From: Methylococcaceae bacterium
GTDB taxonomy: Bacteria; Pseudomonadota; Gammaproteobacteria; Methylococcales; Methylomonadaceae
Reading direction: 5' to 3'
DNA: 49,089 bases
NCBI GenBank assembly: GCA_012965425.1
Contig: DTSI01000133.1
Span: 1-49,089, forward strand
Shown piece by piece: positions 5,965-19,108 of this stretch. The first letter of the stretch is position 1. Each line of letters starts with the position of its first letter. The notes below the pieces were generated by a model, which saw only the letters and a list, made by a program, of their open reading frames with translations, did not search any database and was not told where the DNA came from. The position numbers and the translations under genes were made by a program.

Positions 5965-7410
5965 CTACCGTTCTCTTAATGCTTGCTGTTTTGCTCTTAA
6001 TACCGGTTTTAATAAATAGTCCATAATGGTTTTCTTGCCGGTAATAATATCCACCGTTGCTACCATCCCTGGAATAATCGCTAACGGCGCTTGCTCTGTT
6101 CCTAAATGATTTTTATCCGTTCTGACCTTTACTAAATAAAAACTCTCGTCTTCTTCAATCACCGCATCCGGACTGATATGCTCTAATTTAGCCTTTAAGC
6201 CGCCATAAATAGTAAAGTCATAGGCGGTAAACTTAACGACAACATCCTGATTCGGCCGGATAAAGGCAATATCAGTCGGCTTAATTTTAGCCTCAACCAC
6301 CAACGATTCATCCAACGGTACGATTTCAATAAGATCCATACCCGGGCGCACGACCGAGGTGATGGTATTGGCTAAAACCCGCTGCACAACCCCTCTGACT
6401 GGCGAGCGAACGGCGGTGCGTTTGACCCGGTCTTTTGCTGCCACTGTGGTTTCTGAAATCGTGGTGTAATCGGCTAATATGGCATTGAGTTGCTCACGGG
6501 ATTCATTCTTAAACTGAAATTTGCGTTCATCTCGTTTGCCTTCTAATTCTTCAACTTCCATCGCTAAGCGCGGTATTTCCAGCTTAACGCTGGCTAATTC
6601 TCCCAACACGTCATTAACACTTTTTTCTAACCGAATCACCTCTACTTCAGAAATAGCGCCTTTAGCAACTAAGGGGGCGGTCATTGCCAACTCTTTTTGC
6701 GAGAGTGCTACGCTCTTTTCCAGAAAATCCTTACGCGAGTTAATTTCTATAGCGCGTTGTTTAATCTGCTTAATCTGGCTTTCAAAAGCCGACAAGGTCG
6801 CTTCCAGTTCCTGATGTCTGGCGAGATATAAATTCCGCTCTTGCTTGACCACTTCCGTAAAGTCTTGTTCCAAGTCTTCTGGAAAGTCTAATGCCTTTTC
6901 CTCAATCTCGGCTAATAAACGATATTTCCTAACCGTTAAGACCTGTAGCTTTTTATTAATTTCTTCTAAACTCGCTGCAAACTGCGTGTCATCGATCCGA
7001 AGTAATATCTGCCCTTTTTCAACCGTATCGCCGGCTTTAACTAACACTTCTGAAATAATACCGCCTTCCATATTTTGTAACACTTGCAATTGTTGCGCCG
7101 GAACGGCCTTGCCCTGCCCTACTGTCACCTCATCAATTTCAGCCCAATTAGCCCACATAATAAAGACCACGACAAACACTAAAACGATTACGATCAACTG
7201 ACGTGCCCCCTGTGGACTGCGCAGTAATATCGCTTCGCTACGGTCAGACATAAAGCCATAATCTTGCGCATTAATCAGCGCGTAATCTTGTTCTGACAAG
7301 GGACGCTCATCGCCGAGCATTTGTGCTAACCACTGCTCACGGCCACGACGGCTCAGCCGGGCTAAACGCTCGGTTAGGGCTTGCTTAATTTCAATTACTT
7401 TAGGATGCAT
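5965..7410 (-). CDS. lapC: HlyD-family membrane fusion protein of type I secretion (LapC)
   Basis: 481 residues. A cytoplasmic N-terminal stretch leads into one transmembrane segment (about residues 70-88, LIVIVLVFVVVFIMWANW), then the lipoyl/barrel sandwich half GQGKAVPAQQLQVLQNMEGG. A long alpha-hairpin coiled coil (about 150-310) follows, then the second half with VRSPVRGVVQRVLANT and the C-terminal beta-barrel MVATVDIITGKKTIMDYLLKPV, the standard HlyD/PrtE/LapC ending. It bridges the inner-membrane ABC transporter and the outer-membrane TolC-like channel. The start lies 1 bp after the lapB stop, so the genes are translationally linked. The cargo is most likely the giant adhesin at the left edge. 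Confidence 0.93.
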   Translation of the reverse strand: MHPKVIEIKQALTERLARLSRRGREQWLAQMLGDERPLSEQDYALINAQDYGFMSDRSEAILLRSPQGARQLIVIVLVFVVVFIMWANWAEIDEVTVGQGKAVPAQQLQVLQNMEGGIISEVLVKAGDTVEKGQILLRIDDTQFAASLEEINKKLQVLTVRKYRLLAEIEEKALDFPEDLEQDFTEVVKQERNLYLARHQELEATLSAFESQIKQIKQRAIEINSRKDFLEKSVALSQKELAMTAPLVAKGAISEVEVIRLEKSVNDVLGELASVKLEIPRLAMEVEELEGKRDERKFQFKNESREQLNAILADYTTISETTVAAKDRVKRTAVRSPVRGVVQRVLANTITSVVRPGMDLIEIVPLDESLVVEAKIKPTDIAFIRPNQDVVVKFTAYDFTIYGGLKAKLEHISPDAVIEEDESFYLVKVRTDKNHLGTEQAPLAIIPGMVATVDIITGKKTIMDYLLKPVLRAKQQALRER

Positions 7411-7411
7411 A

Positions 7412-9559
7412 TTAAGTGCCCTGTTGCATTTGCAGCGACGTTAACACCACATCTTTAGGACCGTCGGCCACGACTTGGCCTTGCTCTAAAATAATGATCC
7501 GATCCACCCAAGCTAATAACGGATTTCGGTGGGTATTTAAAATAACCGTTTTACCCTCTAAAAAAGGTTTTAAATTATTAATCAGCTGATCTTCACTGCG
7601 CTTGTCTAAAGAACTACTGGGTTCATCTAACAAGACAATGGTCGGATTAGACAAGATTGCCCGCGCTAATGCTACGCACTGGCGTTGTCCTCCGGAGAGC
7701 CGTTCACCCCGCTCCCCAACGGGCAGATCAAACCCTTCTGAATGGCTGGCGGCTATTTCTGCCGCCCCGGATAATTGCGCGGCCTTTAACACATCGTCAT
7801 CACTGGCATACGGGTTAGCATAGGTAATATTGTCTTTTAAACTACCAAAAAATAACACCGGATCTTGTCCGACATGCCCGATGTTGCTACGCAATTGTGC
7901 AGGGTCCCTATGACGAATATCAATCCCATCCATACGAATCACCCCATCGTCAACTTCATATAAATTCAAAACCAATCGTTGCAAGGTGGTTTTTCCCGAA
8001 CCCACTCGACCAATAATTCCTACTCGTTCGCCCGCCTTAATCGTGATGCTAATATTTTTAAGCGACTGCTGTTGTTCATTGGGATAACTAAACGCGACTT
8101 TCTCAAAAGAGATTTGCCCTGATAGTGCGCCTTGGTGAATAAATGTTTCCCGCTCCTGATTTTCCCGGGGTTTAGCCATCACTTCATTCAAGCCAATTAA
8201 CGCAGCCTTCGCGTAATAATAGCGGGTCGCTAATCCGGCCACCTGGCCCATGGGCGCTAATACCCGCGCCGATAACAATACCACCGCGATTAAGCCCCCC
8301 ATACTTAATTCACCTTCGATAATGCTATAGACCCCGAAGACAATCATGCCGGTTGAAACCATTTGTTGTACTGCGGTCGCCACGGTCGTACTTGAGGCGG
8401 AAAGCAAACGAGATTTAACCCCCCAATCAGCAATATAACCAGTCGCCCGCTCCCAACGGCTTTGAAGCGGCCCTTCTGCATTGAGTGTTTTAATCGTTTC
8501 TAACGCGCTAAGACTTTCTATTAAGGTGGCATTTTTCTGCGCTGTTTCGCGCATGGTTTTATCCACCGATTCTCGCAAGGGTTCTTGGATAAAAAAGCTA
8601 TATAAGGCAATAATAATAACGCCAACTAAAGGCACAACCACCAACCAACCGCCGACCCAATAAATAACCGCTAAAAACACCAGAACAAAGGGTAAATCAA
8701 CCACACTGGTAATGGTTGCTGAGGTAATAAAGTCGCGAACGCTTTCAAAGTTTTTTAAATTGTTGGCAAAGGCCCCGACCGAGGCTGGCCGGTTGGATAA
8801 CTTCATCCCTAAGACTTGTTCAAAAATCGCTGCCGACAGTAACACATCCGATTTCTTACCGGCAATATCGATGCAATAACCGCGCAAAGTCCGAAGAATA
8901 AAATCAAACACATAAACAATCAAAACACCTGAGGTTAACACCATCAAGGTTTCGACTGCCTGATTGGGCACCACCCGGTCATAGACATTCATCACGTATA
9001 AAGGACTGACCACGGCAAAGAGATTAATTAACAACGAGGCTAACAATACATCACGATAAATGCGCCAAGACCTTAATAACGTTCCCCAAAACCAACTGCG
9101 AGAACGGACCGTTAGCAATTCAGGTGTTCTTTCATCAAACCGGTGGGCTTTAGTCACCAAGAATAGTTTGCCACTGTAGTCCTTAGTCAACTCATCTAAA
9201 CTGGTTTCAATATTTCCTTCGGCTTCAGGGATATATAAAGTGGCTGTTCGTTGGCGCTCATCAACAGCTAACAATACCGCCGAACGATTATCTTTTAACT
9301 GAATAACAGCAGGCAAGACCAACCCCGACACCGCTGTTAAAGACCGCTCGGTTAATTTAGCGGTTAAACCCACACGTGCGGCAGCACGAATAAATAATTC
9401 AGGGGTTAATTGGTTATTCACCAACGGCAGTCCTGCCACTAACGATTCGGCAGACACCGACTGACCGTGGTGTTTTGCAAAAAACAACAGGGCCGCTAAC
9501 AGTGAATCCTCACCGGTCGGCAAATCTAAACGTTCAGGTAATACCAGAGCTTCGATCAT
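7412..9559 (-). CDS. lapB: Type I secretion ABC transporter with degenerate C39-like domain (LapB)
   Basis: 715 residues. Residues 1-135 form a C39-peptidase-like domain without the catalytic cysteine motif (the region reads GEDSLLAALLFFAKHHGQ), as in exporters of uncleaved RTX/LapA substrates. A six-helix permease follows (about 160-440), then the ATPase: Walker A GRVGSGKTT, signature LSGGQRQ, Walker B IVLLDEPSSSLD and the H-loop NTHR. It energises export of the adhesin through LapC and the TolC-like channel. It heads a two-gene operon with lapC. There is no strong ribosome site at the ATG; the upstream 170 bp separates it from the terminator of the next gene. Confidence 0.94.
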   Translation of the reverse strand: MIEALVLPERLDLPTGEDSLLAALLFFAKHHGQSVSAESLVAGLPLVNNQLTPELFIRAAARVGLTAKLTERSLTAVSGLVLPAVIQLKDNRSAVLLAVDERQRTATLYIPEAEGNIETSLDELTKDYSGKLFLVTKAHRFDERTPELLTVRSRSWFWGTLLRSWRIYRDVLLASLLINLFAVVSPLYVMNVYDRVVPNQAVETLMVLTSGVLIVYVFDFILRTLRGYCIDIAGKKSDVLLSAAIFEQVLGMKLSNRPASVGAFANNLKNFESVRDFITSATITSVVDLPFVLVFLAVIYWVGGWLVVVPLVGVIIIALYSFFIQEPLRESVDKTMRETAQKNATLIESLSALETIKTLNAEGPLQSRWERATGYIADWGVKSRLLSASSTTVATAVQQMVSTGMIVFGVYSIIEGELSMGGLIAVVLLSARVLAPMGQVAGLATRYYYAKAALIGLNEVMAKPRENQERETFIHQGALSGQISFEKVAFSYPNEQQQSLKNISITIKAGERVGIIGRVGSGKTTLQRLVLNLYEVDDGVIRMDGIDIRHRDPAQLRSNIGHVGQDPVLFFGSLKDNITYANPYASDDDVLKAAQLSGAAEIAASHSEGFDLPVGERGERLSGGQRQCVALARAILSNPTIVLLDEPSSSLDKRSEDQLINNLKPFLEGKTVILNTHRNPLLAWVDRIIILEQGQVVADGPKDVVLTSLQMQQGT

Positions 9560-9730: not shown

Positions 9731-10576
9731 CTAAGGAGCAATTTCAATAGGGTGATCACCAACTATGCCAGCATTTACACCTACATTGCCTGCTCCTGTA
9801 CACACCGGATGACCAAAACCACCCGTACTTACCCCATCAAGGCCTAGGTCAAAAATAATGTTGTCGCTACCATCGCTATTAACCCCGCTTGGGACATAAT
9901 CTAACCCCAGCGCATCACGAACTCGCCAGGCAATGTTATGGTCGGCACACGAGCTGTCACCACTGACACCAATCGCGCCGATCAATTTCGGCTCATCACC
10001 ATCGCCTAATGTATAAAGCGCCAGACCGCCGCCGAAAACATTGACCCCGCCGATACGGTGATTGACCATAGGGTCATTATGTTGACCAAAATTTCCAGCA
10101 TTACCTTTATAAGCTGTTTTGGTATCGACTGGGTTACTGAATTGTAGGCCAAACAACGAGCCGCCCGGCTGTGTAGGCGCCCATAAATTAGCCGTTGATA
10201 ACGCTAACCCTGGCAAACCAAACGCAATGGCAGTATTGGCCTTTTGCGCCGAGATCACCCGACTGCCCAACCATTGGTCATTAAGCCCCTCGCCTGTTTT
10301 GGTCACCGCACAAACGGTACCGTCAGGCCCGACCACCGTGGCCCACATTTCTAAATCAAAACCGCCATTACTAGATAGATAATCATTTAAAGGGTCATCA
10401 TCATCTGGGTCTTCACCACCAACAAATACAGAGGCATTTAATTGTGCAGTTAAATTTTCGTGGCCACCAATCGCCTCCATCACAGCGTTACAAACTTCAT
10501 CATTATCATCACCCGCTAATAGCGCACCGGAAAATCCTAGTGCACTGACTACCATTAACATTACTATTTTTTTCAT
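9731..10576 (-). CDS. Exported GlcG/HbpS-like (DUF336) protein
   Basis: 281 residues. A clear Sec signal peptide (MKKIVMLMVVSALGFSGALLAG) is followed by an acidic linker and a domain matching the GlcG/HbpS haem-degrading-type fold. The markers are MEAIGGHENLTAQLNASVFV, TVVGPDGTVCAVTKTGE, SAQKANTAIAFGLPG, GGVNVFGGGLALY and the hallmark IGAIGVSGDSSCADHNIAWRVRDALG. In this family the domain binds haem or small ligands; here the substrate is unknown. The protein has acidic Asp-rich inserts (GGEDPDDDDP) and four or more cysteines, in line with an exported form. The start has GAGG 6 nt before the ATG. It is preceded by leader repeat A and ends at its own terminator. Being exported and next to a type II secretion operon, it is a possible substrate (inference). 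Confidence 0.85.
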   Translation of the reverse strand: MKKIVMLMVVSALGFSGALLAGDDNDEVCNAVMEAIGGHENLTAQLNASVFVGGEDPDDDDPLNDYLSSNGGFDLEMWATVVGPDGTVCAVTKTGEGLNDQWLGSRVISAQKANTAIAFGLPGLALSTANLWAPTQPGGSLFGLQFSNPVDTKTAYKGNAGNFGQHNDPMVNHRIGGVNVFGGGLALYTLGDGDEPKLIGAIGVSGDSSCADHNIAWRVRDALGLDYVPSGVNSDGSDNIIFDLGLDGVSTGGFGHPVCTGAGNVGVNAGIVGDHPIEIAP

Positions 10577-10708
10577 CTTCGACCTCGTTCAAGAATTTTT
10601 CTTTTTAAAAACCCTTTACACCTTCTTCTTAATGCCTGGGTTAAACCGATGCGGCCTAACCCTTAAGTGCTTAGGTTGATTCCTATTCCCGCTGAAATAG
10701 TTAAGATA

Positions 10709-10980
10709 GAGTCTAGAGAGAAGGGAATATTTAACTATTGGATTAAAGGACTAGAGGCGGGTTTTTTAACCCTATGGGGAATAGCATAAAAAACAAAAAA
10801 GATTTTAAATCAATAACTTAAAGCATGACCCACGGCACAAAAAAATTCACTCCCAGTAAAAAAAGGCGGTTCAAGGGAGATTAACAGCCATTGCATTTTG
10901 CAAGAGATAAAACTACCCAGTCGCTAACATTCACCATTCGTTTTAACATCATGATTCTGAATATTACCGACAACAACATT
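10709..10980 (-). repeat. Leader repeat, copy A (gene-free stretch 10577-10980)
   Basis: This ~270-bp block is a near copy of 13172-13444 (copy B) and shares its two ends with 16168-16310 (copy C). It begins (plus) with GAGTCTAGAGAG, contains the palindrome-like GGGTTTTTTAACCC at 10759-10772, and ends directly at the stop of the RT remnant. Between the block and the gene start at 10576 there are another 130 bp without a recognisable gene. All three copies lie upstream of a signal-peptide gene read on the minus strand, so a shared promoter or operator is the simplest reading. No clear sigma-70 promoter can be fixed by eye. Confidence 0.85.
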
Positions 10981-11596
10981 TTAGTGTGCGGTTTTTTGTT
11001 TCAACACAAACTTGGCTATGCCTCCTGATAAATAAACATAGTTCCACCATCTGCTGGCCAAATTTTTAAATAACAATTTTTTGCGCAGTTTATGGGTTTT
11101 GTAGTGCTTCAGTATGCCCAGATAAGCATTCATACTGCTTAGGAAAGCCGCCTGCTTCTGCTTGCTGGGTTTCTGCACTAAAACCTGTGCATTTTGTTTT
11201 TGAATCGCATCATAAAAATTGCCCTGAGTGCGCTTAGTAATATAGATGCGGTGTGGTTTGATGACAGTACCTAAAAACTGTACGCCTTTTGAATAATGCT
11301 GCCAATAGATTTTGTTGGGATGTAAGCGCAGCTGTAAATGTTCTAGTAATCTGGCCTTAATCACAGGAATAAGTGATTTCAAAACATCTTTATCTTGATG
11401 CACCAGAATAAAATTATCGACATAGCGACCATAATAGCGAATTTCCAAATCATGCTTAATAAAATGATCAAAGCCATTCATATAAAAGTTGGCAAAAACC
11501 TGGCTGCTCAGGTTACCTATCGGTAAACCGCACTCTGTCGGAACGTGCGATGACTGGCGTGGCCTCTGATACAAAATCAAATAAAGACAGTTGCAT
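10981..11596 (-). pseudogene. Second DGR reverse transcriptase copy with internal deletion
   Basis: The 3' 560 bp (10981 to about 11540) are very close to the 3' half of the RT at 13445-14000, encoding CGLPIGNLSSQVFANFYMN, the DGR-type motif 4, through to the C-terminus KFVLKQKTA. At about 11541-11545 the sequence jumps to the first ~50 bp of the same gene (ATG at 11596, MQLSLFDFVSEATPVIA). Roughly 600 bp coding for the fingers and first palm motifs are missing and the junction changes frame. The catalytic box reads YVDN instead of YxDD (one metal-binding Asp changed to Asn). This is a dead remnant of a tandem duplication. Its upstream flank still carries the spacer hairpin of a DGR. Confidence 0.9.
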
Positions 11597-11616
11597 AGAC
11601 TTTAATCCGTACGAAA

Positions 11617-11648
11617 ACACAGGCAACAAGATCAATTGCTGCCTGTGT
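11617..11648 (-). other. Spacer hairpin, copy A (TR-RT spacer equivalent)
   Basis: ACACAGGCA (11617-11625) pairs with TGCCTGTGT (11640-11648), a 9-bp stem. It is homologous to the hairpin at 14673-14704, but the A-T pair at 11621/11644 replaces the C-G pair there. In this copy the hairpin follows the thrombospondin-repeat gene instead of a template repeat. Confidence 0.75.
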
Positions 11649-11689
11649 GTCTAACGTTAGCTGTATTAGTTTCAACTTAATTTTAAAGT

Positions 11690-13126
11690 TTATTTTTTCT
11701 TTATTTCAATTGTTGATTCACCTTGGAAAAGTCTTCCATTTAGTAATGAACCTTCAATTAACAGATCAAGTTCATCCCCATTACTTGCACCACTAAAAAT
11801 ATCACAAAGTGATGATCTCGATAGATGCATTGTACTATCTGCATCGCCATCATTATCAATGTCACTTAAATGCAACCTATCATGTTTTTCATAAACGTAT
11901 TGATCATTAACACTCAATGAATTTAAATCTATTGAAGAGGCTTCAAACTCTCCATCTGAAAGAACTAGGATTGGAAGAACTGCTTTACTTTTAGGAGATC
12001 CTTTACAATTTAAACTTTCAGGACCAATAAAAAGTGCTGCGTTTAAATAGTCACATTCGTCACCGATTCCATTTCCATCGGTGTCCATCTGATCTGGATT
12101 ATATGCATCGACACAGTTATCACAAACATCTCCTACTTCATCACGGTCAGAGTCCAATTGATCGTTATTTGGAGTTAAAGGACAGTTATCATCCTCATCT
12201 GATATCCCATCATTATCTGTATCAATAAATGCATAATCTAATGCTGTTACCTTAATATTTACCTTGTGCCCCATATCTGAAGATACATCATCTTCAGCTT
12301 CTGAGTAATCTGCATAAAAGAAATTTGGTCTAGAAAGGTCACCATTTGAATTATGTAATGGCGCTAATCCAAATTTTAAAATATTCTCACCTCCACCATA
12401 GTTTTGAAAAACCGATGATCCTCCAGGAGATGGTCGAGAACTAAAACTAATAGTAAAATATTTTGTTCCATAATAGGCTTGAGAAGAAAAGTTTCTTTCA
12501 TGACTAATAACTTCTTCCTTATACTCTCCCACCGTATCTCCGTCGTTATCAACACCTCCACCGTAAACATGTAAACCTATTCTTAATACTGCTTTAGATC
12601 CATCATCAATTCGACCAAGTAACAAACCGGCACTTATTTGAGTGGGAGGAGATTCTGAATTGAATGTTGAAGCTATGCCTCTAATAATATGATTAACATC
12701 AATGTTATAACCTACATCATCAGGATCATTCACAGTGAACTTAATCTCATAACCCACTTCCCTTAAATAAATAAGTGCAAAGTCAGGAGCTTCAGGTTGT
12801 ATAACCTTATGACCCATAAACCATTGAAAGTGAGTGCTAAATGTTGACTCGAGTCCTTCGGTTGTAACACTAGTTGTATCTACAATGTCTGACCTTAACT
12901 CTCTAACCACATAGTTACCTGTTGCTGCAATTTCATCAGGCGATCCTAAATTATTAGTACTAATGTTTGATATAGTGACATTTGCTGCGTGAACCTGTCC
13001 CACGACAATACACGCTAATAAAAAAGCAGAGAGGTTCGGAATCCTGATTTTCATTGCGTAATTTACTATTTGTGTAAGCATAAAAAAAGAATAGGACGTC
13101 CAATCTCGTTTATGTGATTTTTTCAT
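11690..13126 (-). CDS. Exported thrombospondin type-3 repeat (Ca-binding) protein
   Basis: 478 residues from the ATG at 13126, which has GAGGAGG 8-9 nt upstream; an earlier TTG at 13153 has no such site. The N-terminus is a long, basic leader ([11 protein letters not shown]...) before a hydrophobic core and an AXA-like end (VVGQVHA, about residue 47), so another start at the ATG 13054 is possible. Residues ~48-290 form a beta-rich domain I do not recognise, with several YGGG/GGGE patches. Residues ~295-360 hold thrombospondin-3 calcium repeats ([45 protein letters not shown]). A C-terminal domain with a further [10 protein letters not shown] loop ends the protein; a PEP-CTERM-like or sorting tail is absent. 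Codon use (AGA, ATA, low GC) looks more AT-rich than the neighbours, which fits acquisition. It sits between leader repeat B and an RT remnant, where the DGR proper has variable protein, avd and TR. Confidence 0.85.
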
Positions 13127-13141
13127 AATTAGTTCCCTCCT

Positions 13142-13162
13142 CAGATTTATCAAATAACTCTG
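13142..13162 (-). promoter_or_regulatory. Leader hairpin upstream of the thrombospondin-repeat gene
   Basis: CAGATTTAT and ATAACTCTG form a 9-bp stem (one mismatch) with a CAA loop. It ends next to the GAGGAGG ribosome site and lies ~10 bp from the start of leader repeat B. A longer hairpin occupies the same position at 16131-16167, without sequence identity, so position rather than sequence is shared. Confidence 0.45.
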
Positions 13163-13171
13163 TCACACGTT

Positions 13172-13444
13172 GAGTCTAGAGAGGGAGGGAATATTTAACT
13201 ATTGGACTAAAGGACTAGAGGCGGGTTATTTAACCCTATGGGGGATAGCATAAAAAACAAAAAAGTTTTTAAATCCATAACTTAAAGCATGACCCACGGC
13301 ACAAAAAAATTCACTCCCGGTAAAAAAAGGCGGTTCAAGGGAGGTTAACAGCCATTGCATTTTGCAAGAGATAAAACTACCCGACTGCTAACCTTCAGCA
13401 ATCGTTTTAACCTCATGATTCTGAATATTACCGACAACAACATT
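13172..13444 (-). repeat. Leader repeat, copy B (gene-free stretch 13127-13444)
   Basis: Closest relative is copy A (10709-10980), with only scattered differences over ~270 bp. Relative to copy C it has an extra ~70 bp (from CATAAAAAAC to the TTCACTCCC region). The palindrome-like core GGGTTATTTAACCC is at 13223-13236. Near its left-hand end (about 13380-13415) it still resembles the 3' end of the luxR gene that borders copy C (both share TAACCTCAT), so the copies seem to derive from the luxR-downstream region. It lies between the RT stop and the thrombospondin-repeat gene. Confidence 0.85.
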
Positions 13445-14652
13445 TTAGGGTGCGGTTTTTTGTTTCAACACAAACTTGGCTATCCCTCCTGATAAATAAG
13501 CATAGTTCCACCATCTACTGGCCAAATTTTTAAATAACAATTTTTTGCGCAACTTATAGGTTTGGTAGTGCTTCAGTATGCCCAGATAAGCATTCATACT
13601 GCTTAGGAAAGCCGCCTGCTGCTGCTTGTTGGGTTTCTGCACTAAAACCTGCGCATTTTGTTTTTTTATCGCATCATAAAAATTACCCTGAGTGCGCTTA
13701 GTAATATAGATGCGGTGTGGTTTGATGACAGCACCTAAAAACTGTACGCCTTTTGAATAATGCTGCCAATAGATTTTGTTGGGATGTAAGCGCAGCTGTA
13801 AATGTTCTAGTAGTCTGGCCTTAAGAACAGGAATAAGCGATTTCAAAACATCTTTATTTTGATGCACCAGAATAAAATCATCGACATCGCGACCATAATA
13901 GCGAATTTCCAAATCATGCTTAATAAAATGATCAAAACCATTCATATAAAAGTTGGCGAAAACCTGGCTGCTCAGGTTACCTATCGGTAAACCACACTGC
14001 GCCGGCGAGTGAAACAAACTCTTATCTGATGGCAAGCCATCCCAGGCACTGCGCTTACTTTTGATGATGCAGTGTTTGGAAGGGTCGTAAAAAATAACCT
14101 AATGACACAGCGATAACAGCAGGGATTTATCATTTTTTAGATATTTTTTCTCAATAAAGTCCTGCAATTCAGCAAACAACAGCGTTTTGTTAATGTGCAT
14201 AAAAAAACCCTTGATATCAAGTTTTAGCACAAAACAATCCTGTGTGTAATTATGAGAACATTGTCGTATAAACCGGTCAATGCGCTGTATGCCGAAATGC
14301 GTGCCCTTGCCCTTGCGACAGGCATAACTGTCATGGATAAAAATTTTTCAAACAAAGGGTTCAGTTTATTGATGATCAGATGATGCACTACCCGGTCACG
14401 AAAGTCGGCGGCGAATATTTCCCGCTTGACCGGCTTGTTAATAATAAAAGCAATAGACTGACCGGGCTGGTAACGGCCATCATTAATTTCAGTGCACAGT
14501 TTAAGCAGATTAGCTTCATAATCCATTTCGAACGCTAAGGCATTAAGGGTGTTGCGTTTATTACTACGGCACTGGGAATAGGCCTCAAACAGGTCGGCAA
14601 GTGCGATAACTGGCGTGGCCTCTGATACAAAATCAAATAAAGACAGTTGCAT
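13445..14652 (-). pseudogene. DGR reverse transcriptase, full length but frameshifted and interrupted
   Basis: From ATG 14652 (MQLSLFDFVSEA) the frame encodes the typical DGR-RT start through REIFAADFRDRVVHHLIINKLNPLFEK. At the homopolymers 14339-14348 one base is missing (T5 where T6 would restore the frame). The next frame gives HDSYACRKGKGTHFGIQ and LKLDIKGFFMHINK (motif A), then an in-frame TAG at 14099-14101 where relatives have a sense codon. Reading resumes with CGLPIGNLSSQVFANFYMN, the SQ-type motif diagnostic of DGR RTs, and the catalytic box, which reads DVDD (RYYGRDVDDF) instead of YxDD. Repaired length would be ~402 residues, normal for DGR RTs. Three independent lesions argue for a dead enzyme. 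It follows TR and spacer hairpin, the classic DGR order. Confidence 0.9.
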
Positions 14653-14672
14653 AGACTTTAATCCGTACGAAA

Positions 14673-14704
14673 ACACCGGCAACAAGGTCAGTTGCTGCCG
14701 GTGT
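14673..14704 (-). other. DGR spacer hairpin between TR and RT
   Basis: ACACCGGCA (14673-14681) pairs with TGCCGGTGT (14696-14704). On the transcribed strand an alternative fold adds GCAAC/GTTGC inside. The second copy at 11617-11648 keeps the stem with a compensatory change (C14677-G14700 against A11621-T11644). The spacer between TR and RT is known in the Bordetella phage DGR to be part of the RNA recognised for cDNA synthesis, so this may be the corresponding RNA element. Confidence 0.7.
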
Positions 14705-14721
14705 GTCTATCGTTAGCTTTG

Positions 14722-14847
14722 TTTAAAACCCCGAACAGCACGTACTCTGTTGGTGTTGTTCTTGTTGTTGTTCTGGTTCCACGCGTTGTTACTATTGTTC
14801 TCCGTAGAACTCCAGTAGTTGTTATTAGCAAAACCACCCACAACGTT
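14722..14847 (-). repeat. DGR template repeat (TR)
   Basis: This 126-bp non-coding segment aligns with the 3' end of the variable protein gene (15384-15533). On the minus strand it starts AACGTTGTGGGTGG and ends GTACGTGCTGTTCGGGG. The middle is packed with AAC/AAT (Asn) codons, the usual look of a TR, because adenines mark the positions to be randomised. About 18 of about 20 base differences to the VR before the 3' end fall on TR adenines. The TR lacks 24 bp (eight codons) that the VR has within the AAC-rich part. An open frame that crosses it is not a gene. Confidence 0.93.
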
Positions 14848-14984
14848 TTATAAAGGCGTTTTAATAAACGCAAGGTCTCTCACGCTTATCTTGGCTTAAC
14901 TGCTCAATATGAACAGTCCCTTTATCGCTTTTAAACAAAAGCATGCTCACTTGCTATCACCGTAACAACAGCAATTCCAGCGTC

Positions 14985-15326
14985 TTACGAGCTGGCATTA
15001 CGCCAACCAGTAACCTGTTTGCCTATGCTGTCCATTAACACCGTTAATTCGGCTTGTTTTTTAAAGGACACGACTTTTAAATCAACACACAGGCGTATTT
15101 CTAACTTAACTAACTCAAACTCATCTAAAAAACGTTCCAACAACTCTTTTTTTTGCGTTGACTTATTGGCACGATAAAGACTCCTCACCAGTTGTAGGGC
15201 ATCACGTTTCATATCTTGCCCTAAGGTGTACTTATACTCTTTGGGAAAATCTTTACTCACGTCAAAAATCTTCAGTATCAGTTTATAAGTATCCCGGTAA
15301 ACCGGTAAATCGTAATAAAGTGCCAT
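14985..15326 (-). CDS. avd: DGR accessory variability determinant, four-helix bundle (Avd)
   Basis: 113 residues, intact, basic and all-helical: MALYYDLPVYRDTYKLILKI, then DFPKEYKYTLGQDMKRDALQLVRSLYRAN, the signature of the bAvd/23S-rRNA-intervening-like four-helix family found in DGRs. Two more helices follow (LERFLDEFELVKLEIRLCVDLKVVS and a final one). In studied DGRs Avd is a pentamer that binds RT and RNA and is needed for cDNA synthesis. The ATG follows GGAGG by three bases. It lies between the variable protein gene (57 bp downstream of its stop) and the TR, in the same direction, so one transcript would cover target, avd, TR and RT. It is the only apparently undamaged part of the mutagenesis machinery here. 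Confidence 0.92.
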   Translation of the reverse strand: MALYYDLPVYRDTYKLILKIFDVSKDFPKEYKYTLGQDMKRDALQLVRSLYRANKSTQKKELLERFLDEFELVKLEIRLCVDLKVVSFKKQAELTVLMDSIGKQVTGWRNASS

Positions 15327-15383
15327 AAGCCTCCAAAAAATCGCCCGCTCCGCGGGAAAGAAAAGAGTTAAATAGATGAATAG

Positions 15384-15533
15384 TTAAAAAGCCCGCACAG
15401 CACGTACTCCCTTGGCGTCGCCCTTGCTGCTGCTGTACTGGCTGCCATTGGTGAAGATCTGGGACCACGCGGTGATACTATTGCCCTGCGTAGAACTCCA
15501 GTAGATGCTACTAGCAAAACCACCCACAACGTT
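15384..15533 (-). repeat. DGR variable repeat (VR)
   Basis: 150 bp at the 3' end of the target gene, running to the stop codon. It matches the TR at 14722-14847 apart from adenine-site changes and a 24-bp block (residues 214-221, NGSQYSSS) absent from the TR. The 3' GTACGTGCTGT stretch is identical in TR and VR and corresponds to the initiation-of-mutagenic-homing region; just beyond it GTG/GTT and GCT/GGT differ, as IMH and IMH* usually do. Confidence 0.93.
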
Positions 15534-16088
15534 ATGTTGTTCATATAAATATTGCAGTTCAAGCTTGGAAGGTAAATGCCAGCAATTAGATGTTGATGGA
15601 AAAATAGTCGTAGAACAGTCCAGTTCAACAGTTATGACGGTGGTGTTATACGATGCCGCAGCTTCGATAGCAGCAAGCCAAATCAGACTCGGATCCTCAC
15701 CATTATTATAATCTCCTACTTGTGCTTCCAAACCATGTTGGCCGGAACCATCGACATAAAATACTATTCCATCATCAGGGCCCGTATCACCCCAATAATA
15801 AACCTCACCTGCCGCAGCATCAGCACCTGCTGGACCTGTATCTCCTTTAGCCCCTGTATCTCCTTGAGGACCAGGTGTTAGAGTAATATTGTTTATTAAA
15901 TCTATAATATATTGATCAGCACTTTCAGCTTCAGCTTTGATTTGTGCTATTTTTCCTTTGCTGTTTTCAGCTTTTCCGTTGACGATATCAATTTCTAGAT
16001 TATCTTCCGCTGCAAATGCGGTATGAGTCAGTACTAAGGATAATCCGATGGATACCGCTAAAGGCTTGAGCCTAAAATTATATTTCAT
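15384..16088 (-). CDS. DGR target: exported protein with collagen-like stalk and DUF1566/C-type-lectin-like variable domain
   Basis: 234 residues. Sec signal peptide at 1-26 (SLVLTHTAFA end); helical segment 30-70; a short collagen-like stretch of GXX triplets at about 73-94 (GPQGDTGAKGDTGPAG). A C-terminal domain of the Lcl/DUF1566 type runs from about 96 to 234, with CWHLPSKLELQYLY and YWSST, and ends in VRAVRAF. That ending is shared by many DGR variable proteins with the formylglycine-enzyme/C-type-lectin fold. Residues 186-234 are encoded by the VR. Positions that differ at TR adenines are 193-195, 202, 205, 206, 209, 211-213, 223-225 and 227, clustered as a ligand-binding surface would be. 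The ATG has GGGAGA 6-7 nt upstream and leader repeat C further up. Likely role: cell-surface or secreted ligand binding (inference). Confidence 0.92.
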   Translation of the reverse strand: MKYNFRLKPLAVSIGLSLVLTHTAFAAEDNLEIDIVNGKAENSKGKIAQIKAEAESADQYIIDLINNITLTPGPQGDTGAKGDTGPAGADAAAGEVYYWGDTGPDDGIVFYVDGSGQHGLEAQVGDYNNGEDPSLIWLAAIEAAASYNTTVITVELDCSTTIFPSTSNCWHLPSKLELQYLYEQHNVVGGFASSIYWSSTQGNSITAWSQIFTNGSQYSSSKGDAKGVRAVRAF

Positions 16089-16130: not shown

Positions 16131-16167
16131 TTCCTGTGCAGTTTTATAAAATAAAACTACACAGGAA
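16131..16167 (-). promoter_or_regulatory. 17-bp leader hairpin upstream of the DGR target gene
   Basis: TTCCTGTGCAGTTTTAT (16131-16147) and ATAAAACTACACAGGAA (16151-16167) form a 17-bp stem with one G-T-type pair and an AAA loop. It abuts leader repeat C and lies ~43 bp before the ATG of the variable protein. It may act in the 5' untranslated RNA or as an operator. As a terminator it would lack a proper U-tract on the coding strand. Confidence 0.6.
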
Positions 16168-16310
16168 GAGTCTAGAGAGAGGGGAATATTTAACTATTGG
16201 ACTAAAGGACTAGAGGCGGGTTTTTTAACCCTACGGGGAATAGTAAAAAAAAGACGGTTAAAGGGGGTTATCAGACTTTGCATTTTGCGAGAGATAAAAC
16301 CACCCGACCG
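16168..16310 (-). repeat. Leader repeat, copy C
   Basis: Shares with copies A and B the start GAGTCTAGAGAG, the ATTTAACTATTGGACTAAAGGACTAGAGG region, the GGGTTTTTTAACCC core (16218-16231) and the end TTGCATTTTGCGAGAGATAAAAC. It lacks the ~70-bp middle insert of A and B. It starts exactly at the luxR stop codon and runs toward the DGR target gene, so it is the whole luxR-target intergenic region. Confidence 0.8.
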
Positions 16311-16958
16311 CTAAGGGTCAGTAGTGATTCTAACCTCATTTAACATCAAGATTAACTTCACCCGGCCACTGACTTTCAGCTTACTAAACACCGCGCCTAA
16401 ATGCGCCTTCACGGTCCGCTCCGAAATGGTTAACCGTGCCGCCATTTTGGCCGTACTGTGTCCCTGATACACTAAAGCCACCACTTCTAGTTCTCTTGCG
16501 GTTAAACACGACAAGGAACGATACATAGGGTTTTTCGTTAACGGTTGATTATTATTTTTCTGTACTAATAAATGGATGACTTTCGGGATCAACCGACGCG
16601 GCACCCAGATCTCATTGTTTAACACCGCGTTAATCGTTTTGTGGATCAATACCGGGGCAACATTAATTTCCGAATAACCCGATATTTCCTGCATCATCAC
16701 TAAGACTTGTAATTGCTCCGAACAGTTTTCACCCAGCATCAGCAATTTTTCACCGTGGCTCATTAACGCGCCAATCTCTTCTGTCACTGTCGGTAACAAT
16801 AACGAGTCAAATACAATCAGATCCACCTTTACATGCTGTTTAAACGCCTCAACTTCTCGAACCGTCGCCACTAGTTGAACACGATGGTGTAACGTTAAGG
16901 TATCGGTCCAAAAGCCGACCCTTAACCCATCTTCGGTGAGCAAAATAATAGTCGCCAT
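16311..16958 (-). CDS. LuxR-type response regulator / transcription factor
   Basis: 215 residues. The N-terminal ~120 residues resemble a receiver-like domain (MATIILLTEDG at the start, VDLIVFDSLLL with the aspartate about residue 53) but lack a clear acidic pair and the Lys motif, so phosphorylation is doubtful. INAVLNNEIWVPRRLI precedes a canonical LuxR helix-turn-helix (LTARELEVVALVYQGHSTAKMAARLTISERTVKAHL). The layout recalls CsgD/VpsT regulators, but the c-di-GMP W[FLM][TS]R motif is WVPR here, so c-di-GMP binding is not supported. GAGG lies 5 nt before the ATG, 14 bp after the gspD stop, so it is the last gene of the type II secretion operon. It directly precedes leader repeat C and is a natural candidate to act on it (inference). 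Confidence 0.85.
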   Translation of the reverse strand: MATIILLTEDGLRVGFWTDTLTLHHRVQLVATVREVEAFKQHVKVDLIVFDSLLLPTVTEEIGALMSHGEKLLMLGENCSEQLQVLVMMQEISGYSEINVAPVLIHKTINAVLNNEIWVPRRLIPKVIHLLVQKNNNQPLTKNPMYRSLSCLTARELEVVALVYQGHSTAKMAARLTISERTVKAHLGAVFSKLKVSGRVKLILMLNEVRITTDP

Positions 16959-16972
16959 CTTATCCTCAACCG

Positions 16973-19108
16973 CTATGACGGACTGTCAATCAAAGCGGGG
17001 TATTGTACCGGCTCACTGTTTACGTCTGGGAAAACAAACCGTAATTTCTGCTTAAATTCTCGGGTAATCGCTCTTGAATCCCAGCGGTTTTCAACCACAC
17101 GGGGGGTTATTAAAACAATTAACTCGGTTTTCTCTTTGGTTTTGGTGGTACTGCCAAATAAAGCCCCCAGCACCGGTATCTTGTGTAATACCGGAATCCC
17201 TGAATAATCGATCACATCATTTTCGGCCATTAAACCGCCTAAAATGATCGTTTCACCGCTTTGAACCACCACGGTACTTTCGATCTTACGTTGTTGGATC
17301 GTCGGCGAATCGATATTACTTTGCACCGTGGGTATGGCCCGGTCTACGCTTTGCTTGATTGCCAGGGTCACCAAACCATTGGCATTAACACGGGGTTTAA
17401 CCTTCAACACCACGCCGGTTTCGCGCATTTGAATGGCACTGGTTTGAATCGGATTAGAACCGCCACTGGTGTTAGTCGACTCCGAGGTACGGATCGGCAC
17501 TTGATCACCGACCTGTATTAACGCCTCCTGATTATTTAATACCATCAGTGAGGGAGTCGATATGACATTAATTTTATTGTCTGTGGCTGCGGCATTCAAC
17601 ACCGCTTTAATATTACCGCTGGCAAAGGCATAGCCAAAACCACCGGTCGCGGCCCCAACCGCTAAGGCCGATGCACTTTGCAACAAACTGTCGCCAAAAC
17701 CATTCAAAGCGGTGACATTCTGGTCATTTAAATGACTAAAATACCAACGCACACCGTATTTAAGATCATCGGTTAAACTCACCGAGACGATCGTTGCATC
17801 GATCATCACTTGCAAGGGCATGACATCTAATTGTTTTAATACCTTTTTAACCACCTGATAATCTTGGGTACTGGCCGTCACGATCAAACTGTTGGTCGAC
17901 TCATCGGCAATAATACGGATAGCCCCTTGTTGCGATGCTATTTGACTCACCGCTTTTGACGCACTATTTACCGAGGCCGGTGGTTGTTTACGATTGGTAA
18001 CCCGCACCAAATTAGCTTTTGTGCCGCCGTTATTTAAAAACGATTGACCGGTAAAAATATTCGTTAATGTTTCAGCCAGCTTAACCGCATCGATGTGTTG
18101 TACGCGATAGACATTAACCCCGCCTGACGTTGTGCTACTACTCCGATCTAGTCTTAAAATCCAGTCCTCGGTATTTTTTAGGTATTGCGGCTGCCGGGTA
18201 ATCGCCAAGACAGCATTTAAGCGCTCAATACTTAAAAACTGTAACGCACCTGGATCGCTTTGCGCCGCTTTCAAACCAAACACCTGATGCAATTCCTCGA
18301 TCATTTTTTCAGGGTCAACATAGACCAAAGGGAACAAAGCAAACGATTTCCCCTGCATAAGGTGCACATCAAATAAACGCACCATTTCCAGCGCTCTGGC
18401 TATTTGAAAAGAAGGCCCTGCGATCAGTACTAAATTTCTAGCATGATCAACATACAAGTCCTTACCGCCGGCAAACAACGGCTTTATTACCTCGACAATC
18501 TGGGCTGCCTCGGTGTATTGAATCGGAACAATTTTCATGTGGTGCGTCCCTGACAACGACTCTTTGCCCAAAACCGCTGTTCGCCCGACCGACTCAGTAC
18601 TCGGTAATACCTGATACAAACCCTTTTCTTTAATTAAAACCGCATGGTTCATGGCTAGCACCATTTCCAGCACCGATAATAAATCTTCTTTATTAATCAA
18701 CTGCGTGGTTTGTAAATTAACCGTCCCTTTAACTTGAGGACTGACCGTGAAATTTAAAGCCAACATCTCTTCTAAAACAACATGTACAAATTCTTTTAAA
18801 TCCGCTTGTTCAAAATTTAACCGAAATTGCCCCTGCGCTTTATTTTTAACGCCATCGCTCATTAATTCAGGCTGTTTATGGGTGCTTTGGGTTAAAAAAT
18901 ATTGATACGGTTTTTTCTTTATTGCAGGGGGCTCAGGGGTGATTAATTTTGTATCCGCCAAAGCACTTGGGTTTTCTTTTGGCTTCTGGTTGCCAGGTAT
19001 AAGACTGAGCATTTGCATAGGTTTTGGACCCAGCATCTCACAACCGGTCAAACTCAATAACACGGCTAAAACACATAATCTTTTTAGAAGAAAGTTTTCC
19101 ATATCCAT
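16973..19108 (-). CDS. gspD: Type II secretion outer membrane secretin GspD
   Basis: 711 residues. An N-terminal lipoprotein-type signal with the lipobox LTGC (cysteine about residue 23) is less usual for GspD, which mostly has a plain signal peptide. The N0 domain starts near FRLNFEQADLKEFVHVVLEEML; N1-N3 repeats follow (VVEVIKPLFAGGKDLYVDHARNLVLI and KLAETLTNIFTGQSF). The secretin C-domain has VGDQVPIRTSE, VLKVKPRVNANGLVTLAIKQ, ILGGLMAEND and the closing KTKEKTELIVLITPRVV. It forms the outer-membrane gate. It stands after the gspC-like gene with 251 bp between, in which I see no gene; a weak internal promoter there is possible. Its lipobox could replace a GspS pilotin, none of which is visible (inference). 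Confidence 0.95.
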   Translation of the reverse strand: MDMENFLLKRLCVLAVLLSLTGCEMLGPKPMQMLSLIPGNQKPKENPSALADTKLITPEPPAIKKKPYQYFLTQSTHKQPELMSDGVKNKAQGQFRLNFEQADLKEFVHVVLEEMLALNFTVSPQVKGTVNLQTTQLINKEDLLSVLEMVLAMNHAVLIKEKGLYQVLPSTESVGRTAVLGKESLSGTHHMKIVPIQYTEAAQIVEVIKPLFAGGKDLYVDHARNLVLIAGPSFQIARALEMVRLFDVHLMQGKSFALFPLVYVDPEKMIEELHQVFGLKAAQSDPGALQFLSIERLNAVLAITRQPQYLKNTEDWILRLDRSSSTTSGGVNVYRVQHIDAVKLAETLTNIFTGQSFLNNGGTKANLVRVTNRKQPPASVNSASKAVSQIASQQGAIRIIADESTNSLIVTASTQDYQVVKKVLKQLDVMPLQVMIDATIVSVSLTDDLKYGVRWYFSHLNDQNVTALNGFGDSLLQSASALAVGAATGGFGYAFASGNIKAVLNAAATDNKINVISTPSLMVLNNQEALIQVGDQVPIRTSESTNTSGGSNPIQTSAIQMRETGVVLKVKPRVNANGLVTLAIKQSVDRAIPTVQSNIDSPTIQQRKIESTVVVQSGETIILGGLMAENDVIDYSGIPVLHKIPVLGALFGSTTKTKEKTELIVLITPRVVENRWDSRAITREFKQKLRFVFPDVNSEPVQYPALIDSPS

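Follow-up and report, generated by a model that had tools for sequence, protein, structure and literature searches.

A diversity-generating retroelement that probably can no longer rewrite its adhesin-like target in a Methylococcaceae draft genome

We found a chromosomal diversity-generating retroelement (DGR) in a 49,089-nt stretch of Methylococcaceae DNA (the window, meaning the whole stretch analyzed). It was most likely active in the past and, with a shortened template repeat (TR) and two damaged reverse transcriptase (RT) copies, cannot rewrite its target as assembled; we give this reading a probability of about 0.86. In a DGR, errors at adenines arise when the RNA of the TR is reverse transcribed, and the resulting cDNA takes the place of a variable repeat (VR). 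The element would belong to a lineage found in methanotroph-type Gammaproteobacteria, Bacteroidota, Chlorobiota, Legionellaceae, and others. TR RNA would once have been copied, with the accessory protein Avd and the RT, into adenine-mutated cDNA that was written into the 3' end of the gene for an exported Lcl-like adhesin. The TR would have lost 24 nt after the last rewriting. The RT would have been duplicated in tandem, with both copies then damaged independently, leaving an element that could no longer mutate its target. Of these events, the retrohoming steps are assumed by analogy with DGRs in general. The reading frames of the target and avd are both still open, and the adhesin is thus probably locked in the form last written to it. 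The locus gives the impression of a preserved record of earlier rewriting, not of a working system.

Locus organization and host genome

The element lies on the minus strand in the usual DGR order of target, avd, TR, and RT (Table 1). An earlier sequence-only reading had placed the TR and VR where we find them and had given the order as Avd, TR, and RT. Positions and order both hold, but the RT is not an open gene, carrying a frameshift, an in-frame TAG, and an altered catalytic box (DVDD).

Table 1. Features of the retroelement and its duplicated segment, in window coordinates
Feature	Position	Strand	Basis
Target gene, 234 aa	15384..16088	minus	ORF, open
VR, 150 bp, at 3' end of target gene	15384..15533	minus	Program alignment to TR
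GC hairpin CCCGC-GGA-GCGGG, downstream of VR	15344..15356	minus	Sequence
avd, accessory protein, 113 aa, open	14985..15326	minus	ORF and Pfam bAvd
TR, 126 bp, without 24 nt present in related TRs	14722..14847	minus	Alignments
RT copy 1, broken, IGNLSSQ kept	13445..14685	minus	RVT_1 match and comparison with intact RTs
RT copy 2, tandem-duplication remnant, internal deletion of about 594 bp	10981..11580	minus	RVT_1 match and comparison
Duplicated segment (RT and downstream leader), paralogous to 10709-11662	13172..14718	minus	95.0% over 828 columns, 93.7% over 126 columns

The host genome is a draft of 2.32 Mb in 155 contigs, given as 99.77% complete, and its AMO/PMO-family gene (416 bits) is in line with the host being a methanotroph. 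The DGR and its duplicated neighbors are flanked by 16311-19108, with a LuxR-type regulator and a GspD secretin gene, and by 5965-9559, with a type I secretion ABC transporter and an HlyD-type adaptor. Rfam searches at gathering scores gave no match within the window. We sought the LuxR-type neighbor in four congeners to find an empty site, and no clear ortholog was found; nor was there an Avd or RT match in these four genomes, one of which is only 65% complete.

TR and VR differ mainly at template adenines

Program alignment of the TR to the VR gave 22 mismatches in 127 ungapped columns, concentrated on TR adenines (A, 18/45; C, 1/25; G, 2/30; T, 1/27). Adenines were thus changed at 18 of 45 positions versus 4 of 82 for the other bases (Fisher P = 1.3e-6), which bears out the adenine-directed differences noted from the sequence by eye. 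That reading had counted about 18 of about 20 differences outside the 3' end on adenines; with the 3' end left out (from CGGG on), the program count is close, at 17 adenine and 3 non-adenine among 20 differences. The rate of non-adenine differences in the core is 3/72. Both exceptions named earlier, G to C and C to G in the core, are correct, and two more (T to G and G to C) lie further towards the 3' end. Counted from the VR side, none of 27 adenines differs, so the direction is from TR to VR, with the TR as donor.

An ordinary duplicated gene segment with adenine-rich differences by chance could also yield two similar repeats, and other duplications do exist in the region. We used one of these as a control, comparing 13172-13998 with 10709-11534 and 14593-14718 with 11537-11662. 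Its 952 aligned positions show no adenine bias (A, 7/269; C, 16/188; G, 14/191; T, 12/304). Against chance duplication stand this unbiased control, the Fisher test, the absence of changes at VR adenines, the adjoining Avd and DGR-type RT, and the same adenine-directed pattern in most related loci that have a TR/VR alignment. We consider that explanation practically negligible; the element is a genuine DGR by descent.

DGRs also have a conserved 3' site at which TR and VR differ, and a hairpin after the VR. The site reads GGGG in the TR and GGGC in the VR of the window and of five of the six relatives compared, the sixth having GGGT and GGGC. Of 68 related loci, 53 have such a hairpin no more than 60 nt away, where mononucleotide shuffles predict 0.6.

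The target resembles an exported Lcl-type adhesin

The target protein has a signal-peptide-like start and a collagen-like stretch, both recognized by eye, and is predicted from its sequence to be exported. Its C-terminal end, which holds the VR, matches Pfam Lcl_C (DUF1566) at 34.6 bits, just under the cut-off of 34.9, and NCBIfam adhesin_Lcl at 5.9e-15 and 54.7 bits, far under the cut-off of 500. These results support the previous description of a signal-peptide protein with a DUF1566-type end. The target also matches PDB 8q4e (4.4e-08), whose molecule is printed as HbP1, which we take to be Legionella Lcl. In a DGR the VR is expected in a C-type-lectin-like domain, and the end of this target may be one. 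The AlphaFold model of the target, with a mean pLDDT of 41.1, was of too low quality for use. Like Legionella Lcl, the target combines a collagen-like stretch with a C-terminal domain of the same type, as judged by the two below-cut-off matches. The Legionella Lcl papers found do not mention a DGR in their titles or the opening lines of their abstracts; the target here, by contrast, is short and carries a VR. The Avd protein, the only Avd match in its genome, reaches 75.1 bits against Pfam bAvd PF22296 (cut-off, 40) and 66.1 bits against NCBIfam DivGenRetAVD NF033474, where the cut-off of 80 is not reached.

Both RT copies are damaged

Compared with the intact RTs of three related loci (L010, L017, and L019), RT copy 1 has a frameshift at about 14336-14344 and a catalytic box changed from YVDD to DVDD (13886-13888; GRDVDDF versus GRYVDDF). 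It also has an in-frame TAG at 14099-14101. Copy 2 lacks the internal segment listed in Table 1, and its catalytic box is changed to YVDN (11413-11415; GRYVDNF). Neither copy has the open RT frame with a YxDD box of a functional DGR. Both retain IGNLSSQ, which fits the DGR-type RT motif (I/V/L)GxxxSQ given in the DiGReF paper (PMC3521204). An RVT_1 search of the genome matched only these two copies and gave no third RT. The wording of the sequence-only reading, that diversity "was directed" at the target, was right in its past tense; a working element is not supported. That reading had not noted the three disruptions of one RT, the defective second copy, or the lack of a further RVT_1 match.

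The copies share two common stretches, at 95.0% and 93.7% identity. These stretches differ at 12 amino acid positions; copy 1 has the derived state at 6 and copy 2 at 3, with 3 ambiguous. Each catalytic change is absent from the other copy and from L016, L017, and L019, so both changes most simply postdate the duplication.

The lesions might instead be assembly errors in an element that is active in the living population, or other strains, or DNA missing from the assembly, might hold an intact copy. The assembly is a draft, single-base RT lesions could be assembly or sequencing errors, and the YVDD changes, lying inside the 95% repeat, are possible short-read chimeras. Assembly collapse between the copies is rejected as the cause of all lesions, because the frameshift and the TAG occur in a part of copy 1 that copy 2 lacks. 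The number of separate lesions, three in copy 1 and two in copy 2, and the lack of a third RT in the genome search speak against a still active element, which we regard as unlikely.

The TR was probably shortened after the last rewriting

The VR exceeds the TR by 24 nt, and their alignment requires one 24-nt gap in the TR. This gap is implied by the repeat lengths reported before (126 and 150 bp), although the apparent loss from the TR had been missed. All 12 related TRs that we aligned, chosen by us from loci with a TR/VR alignment, have sequence at the position of the gap; the segment is diverged in L023 and L031. We compared the segment in the window VR with 8 of these 12 relatives. In five (L010, L017, L018, L019, and L022) it is mutually identical and differs from the VR at four positions, all adenines; L021, L025, and L027 differ at five or six positions, four of them adenines. 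An insertion in the VR is rejected on these grounds, namely, that all 12 related TRs have sequence there and that the VR differs from the five identical TRs only at adenines. The length gap is most likely a deletion in the TR, the VR having been written by a longer template.

The last rewriting would then predate the TR deletion, and a TR shorter than the template that wrote the VR is a further point against an element active today. Since the VR retains sequence lost from its own template, this single locus preserves some of the chronology and illustrates how a DGR can die. In other loci too TR and VR differ in length, in both directions, so unequal length alone is no sign of decay. In L010, L018, and L023, the VR is longer than the TR, and several of the additional stretches are located within or next to AAC-rich tracts; the difference could reflect either slippage on the template or a TR that shortened later.

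Related loci and the state of their RTs

Scanning genome contigs for Avd gave 142 relatives, of which we kept the best 80. The titles of these 80 name Pseudomonadota, Bacteroidota, Chlorobiota, Spirochaetota, and Myxococcota. A phage origin was considered and rejected, the same scan of viral contigs having found no Avd relative. In an RT tree of 60 rows (58 of them loci; midpoint rooted, with a long-branch warning elsewhere in the tree), both copies cluster with the full-length RTs from other Avd loci. Their closest company is L017, L016, and L019, all Methylococcaceae, within a starred group of eight rows that includes two Bacteroidota loci. The joining of these two phyla in one RT group suggests transfer between them.

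The closest loci are all from Methylococcaceae metagenome-assembled genomes: L016/L010 (isolate WB-IL-06, on the same contig), L017 (Methylobacter sp. Day6-2_bin-251), and L019 (Methylovulum sp.). They resemble the window in Avd (85 to 90% identical), gene order, Lcl_C-like target end, and TR, and their RTs are the nearest in the tree. Unlike the window, they have full-length RTs with YVDD and TRs with the 24-nt segment. In the stretches of DNA compared, each has one RT match, none to ORF 11690-13153 or ORF 9731-10576, and no DNA match to the leader repeats of the window.

We could evaluate the RT in 76 of the best 80 Avd loci, calling it full length by length and frame, with a start within 2.5 kb downstream of avd and no catalytic box required. 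It was full length in 55, absent nearby in 10, partial in 8, and frameshifted in 3. One of the partial cases (L094) has an RT further downstream; with it discounted, the RT is broken or absent nearby in 20 of 76 loci, two of which (L018 and L056) lie near a contig end. Seven of the loci with no intact RT nearby (L020, L023, L024, L042, L063, L065, and L079), and others, have Avd proteins 62 to 80% identical to that of the window. A clear adenine-biased TR/VR pair persists in L023, L024, L063, and L065. Among the RT-absent loci, some show no TR/VR pair; each of these could be an orphan Avd gene, a second cassette, or a chimeric contig. With 20 of 76 Avd relatives lacking an intact RT nearby, adenine-directed TR/VR differences are a sign of past, not present, activity.

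Non-adenine TR/VR differences were not higher in 12 loci with a broken or absent RT than in 50 with a full-length RT (one-sided Mann-Whitney P = 0.28); this set leaves out 18 of the 80 loci (an alignment shorter than 100 columns or none at all, or an RT that could not be evaluated), and L010 to L013 were also excluded. We therefore rejected such differences as a clock for RT loss. That DGRs of this lineage regularly end by losing the RT, with the adhesin kept as last written, Avd retained for some time without an RT, and the VR recording a vanished template, would be a doubtful generalization.

Selection on the path to the present locus

Between the window and three relatives, dN/dS was 0.06 to 0.08 for avd, 0.06 to 0.14 for the RT pieces, and 0.22 to 0.43 for the target outside the VR; the RT pieces gave 0.08 to 0.11 among the relatives themselves. 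These ratios are path averages and, with several dS values above 1, rough. They fit a long functional past with recent loss and are no proof of present constraint. For RT copy 1 against copy 2, dN/dS was 0.29, not 1. Loci with full-length RTs span the non-adenine core rate given above; 38 of 50 have a lower one. From these two values, inactivation was recent or is not total. RT constraint on the path to relatives and the modest number of non-adenine differences are what a still active element would also show; we nevertheless favor a formerly active one, on the lesions and the TR described above.

Comparison with described DGRs

Inactivated DGRs in which the RT is broken by nonsense or frameshift and the TR and VR are still recognizable appear in the DiGReF paper (PMC3521204), and the window is like them in both respects. 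Those elements are said there to carry only adenine mutations, whereas the window also has the three non-adenine core differences and, unlike them, an apparent TR deletion after the last writing and a second RT remnant.

A report on Thiohalocapsa PB-PSB1 (PMC10907252) describes degenerate DGR loci beside complete ones. DGR machinery is missing or pseudogenised there as in the window, but a complete locus remains per class, and none was found in the genome of the window. A multi-DGR genome of this kind offers a precedent for a non-autonomous set of target, TR, and Avd that relies in trans on an RT encoded at another genomic site, and Avd, TR, VR, and hairpin are all kept here. In the assembled genome, however, RVT_1 matches nothing beyond the two copies, Avd occurs once, and there is a single TR, whose only matches are itself and the VR; we find service in trans very unlikely. 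Inactivated and degenerate DGRs being already in print, the kind is known; the window adds a further member and the detail of its TR history. Among the open-literature papers found for Methylobacter or methanotrophs together with DGRs, none describes such an element in bacterial methanotrophs in its title or the opening lines of its abstract.

Neighboring leader repeats

A conserved leader with a core of about 90 nt recurs on the minus strand at 16160-16340, 13164-13416, and 10708-10927, and again at 6448-6650 of another contig of the same genome, C74 (L103). It precedes four genes: the DGR target, ORF 11690-13153 (a TSP_3 match below the cut-off), the gene for an HbpS-like protein (9731-10576), and that for a 951-aa protein on C74, peptidase-like by eye. 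A 27-nt core pattern, allowing three mismatches, occurs four times in this genome and is absent from 40 relatives and from a reversed control. The leader is possibly a shared promoter or operator. We do not claim that unequal crossing over of leader A with leader C produced the duplication, since leader B is more similar to the C74 leader close to the gene start. Two of these leaders also have a short reading frame in common (13030-13160, and 6360-6437 of L103; 26 residues, 62% identical), directly ahead of the main gene.
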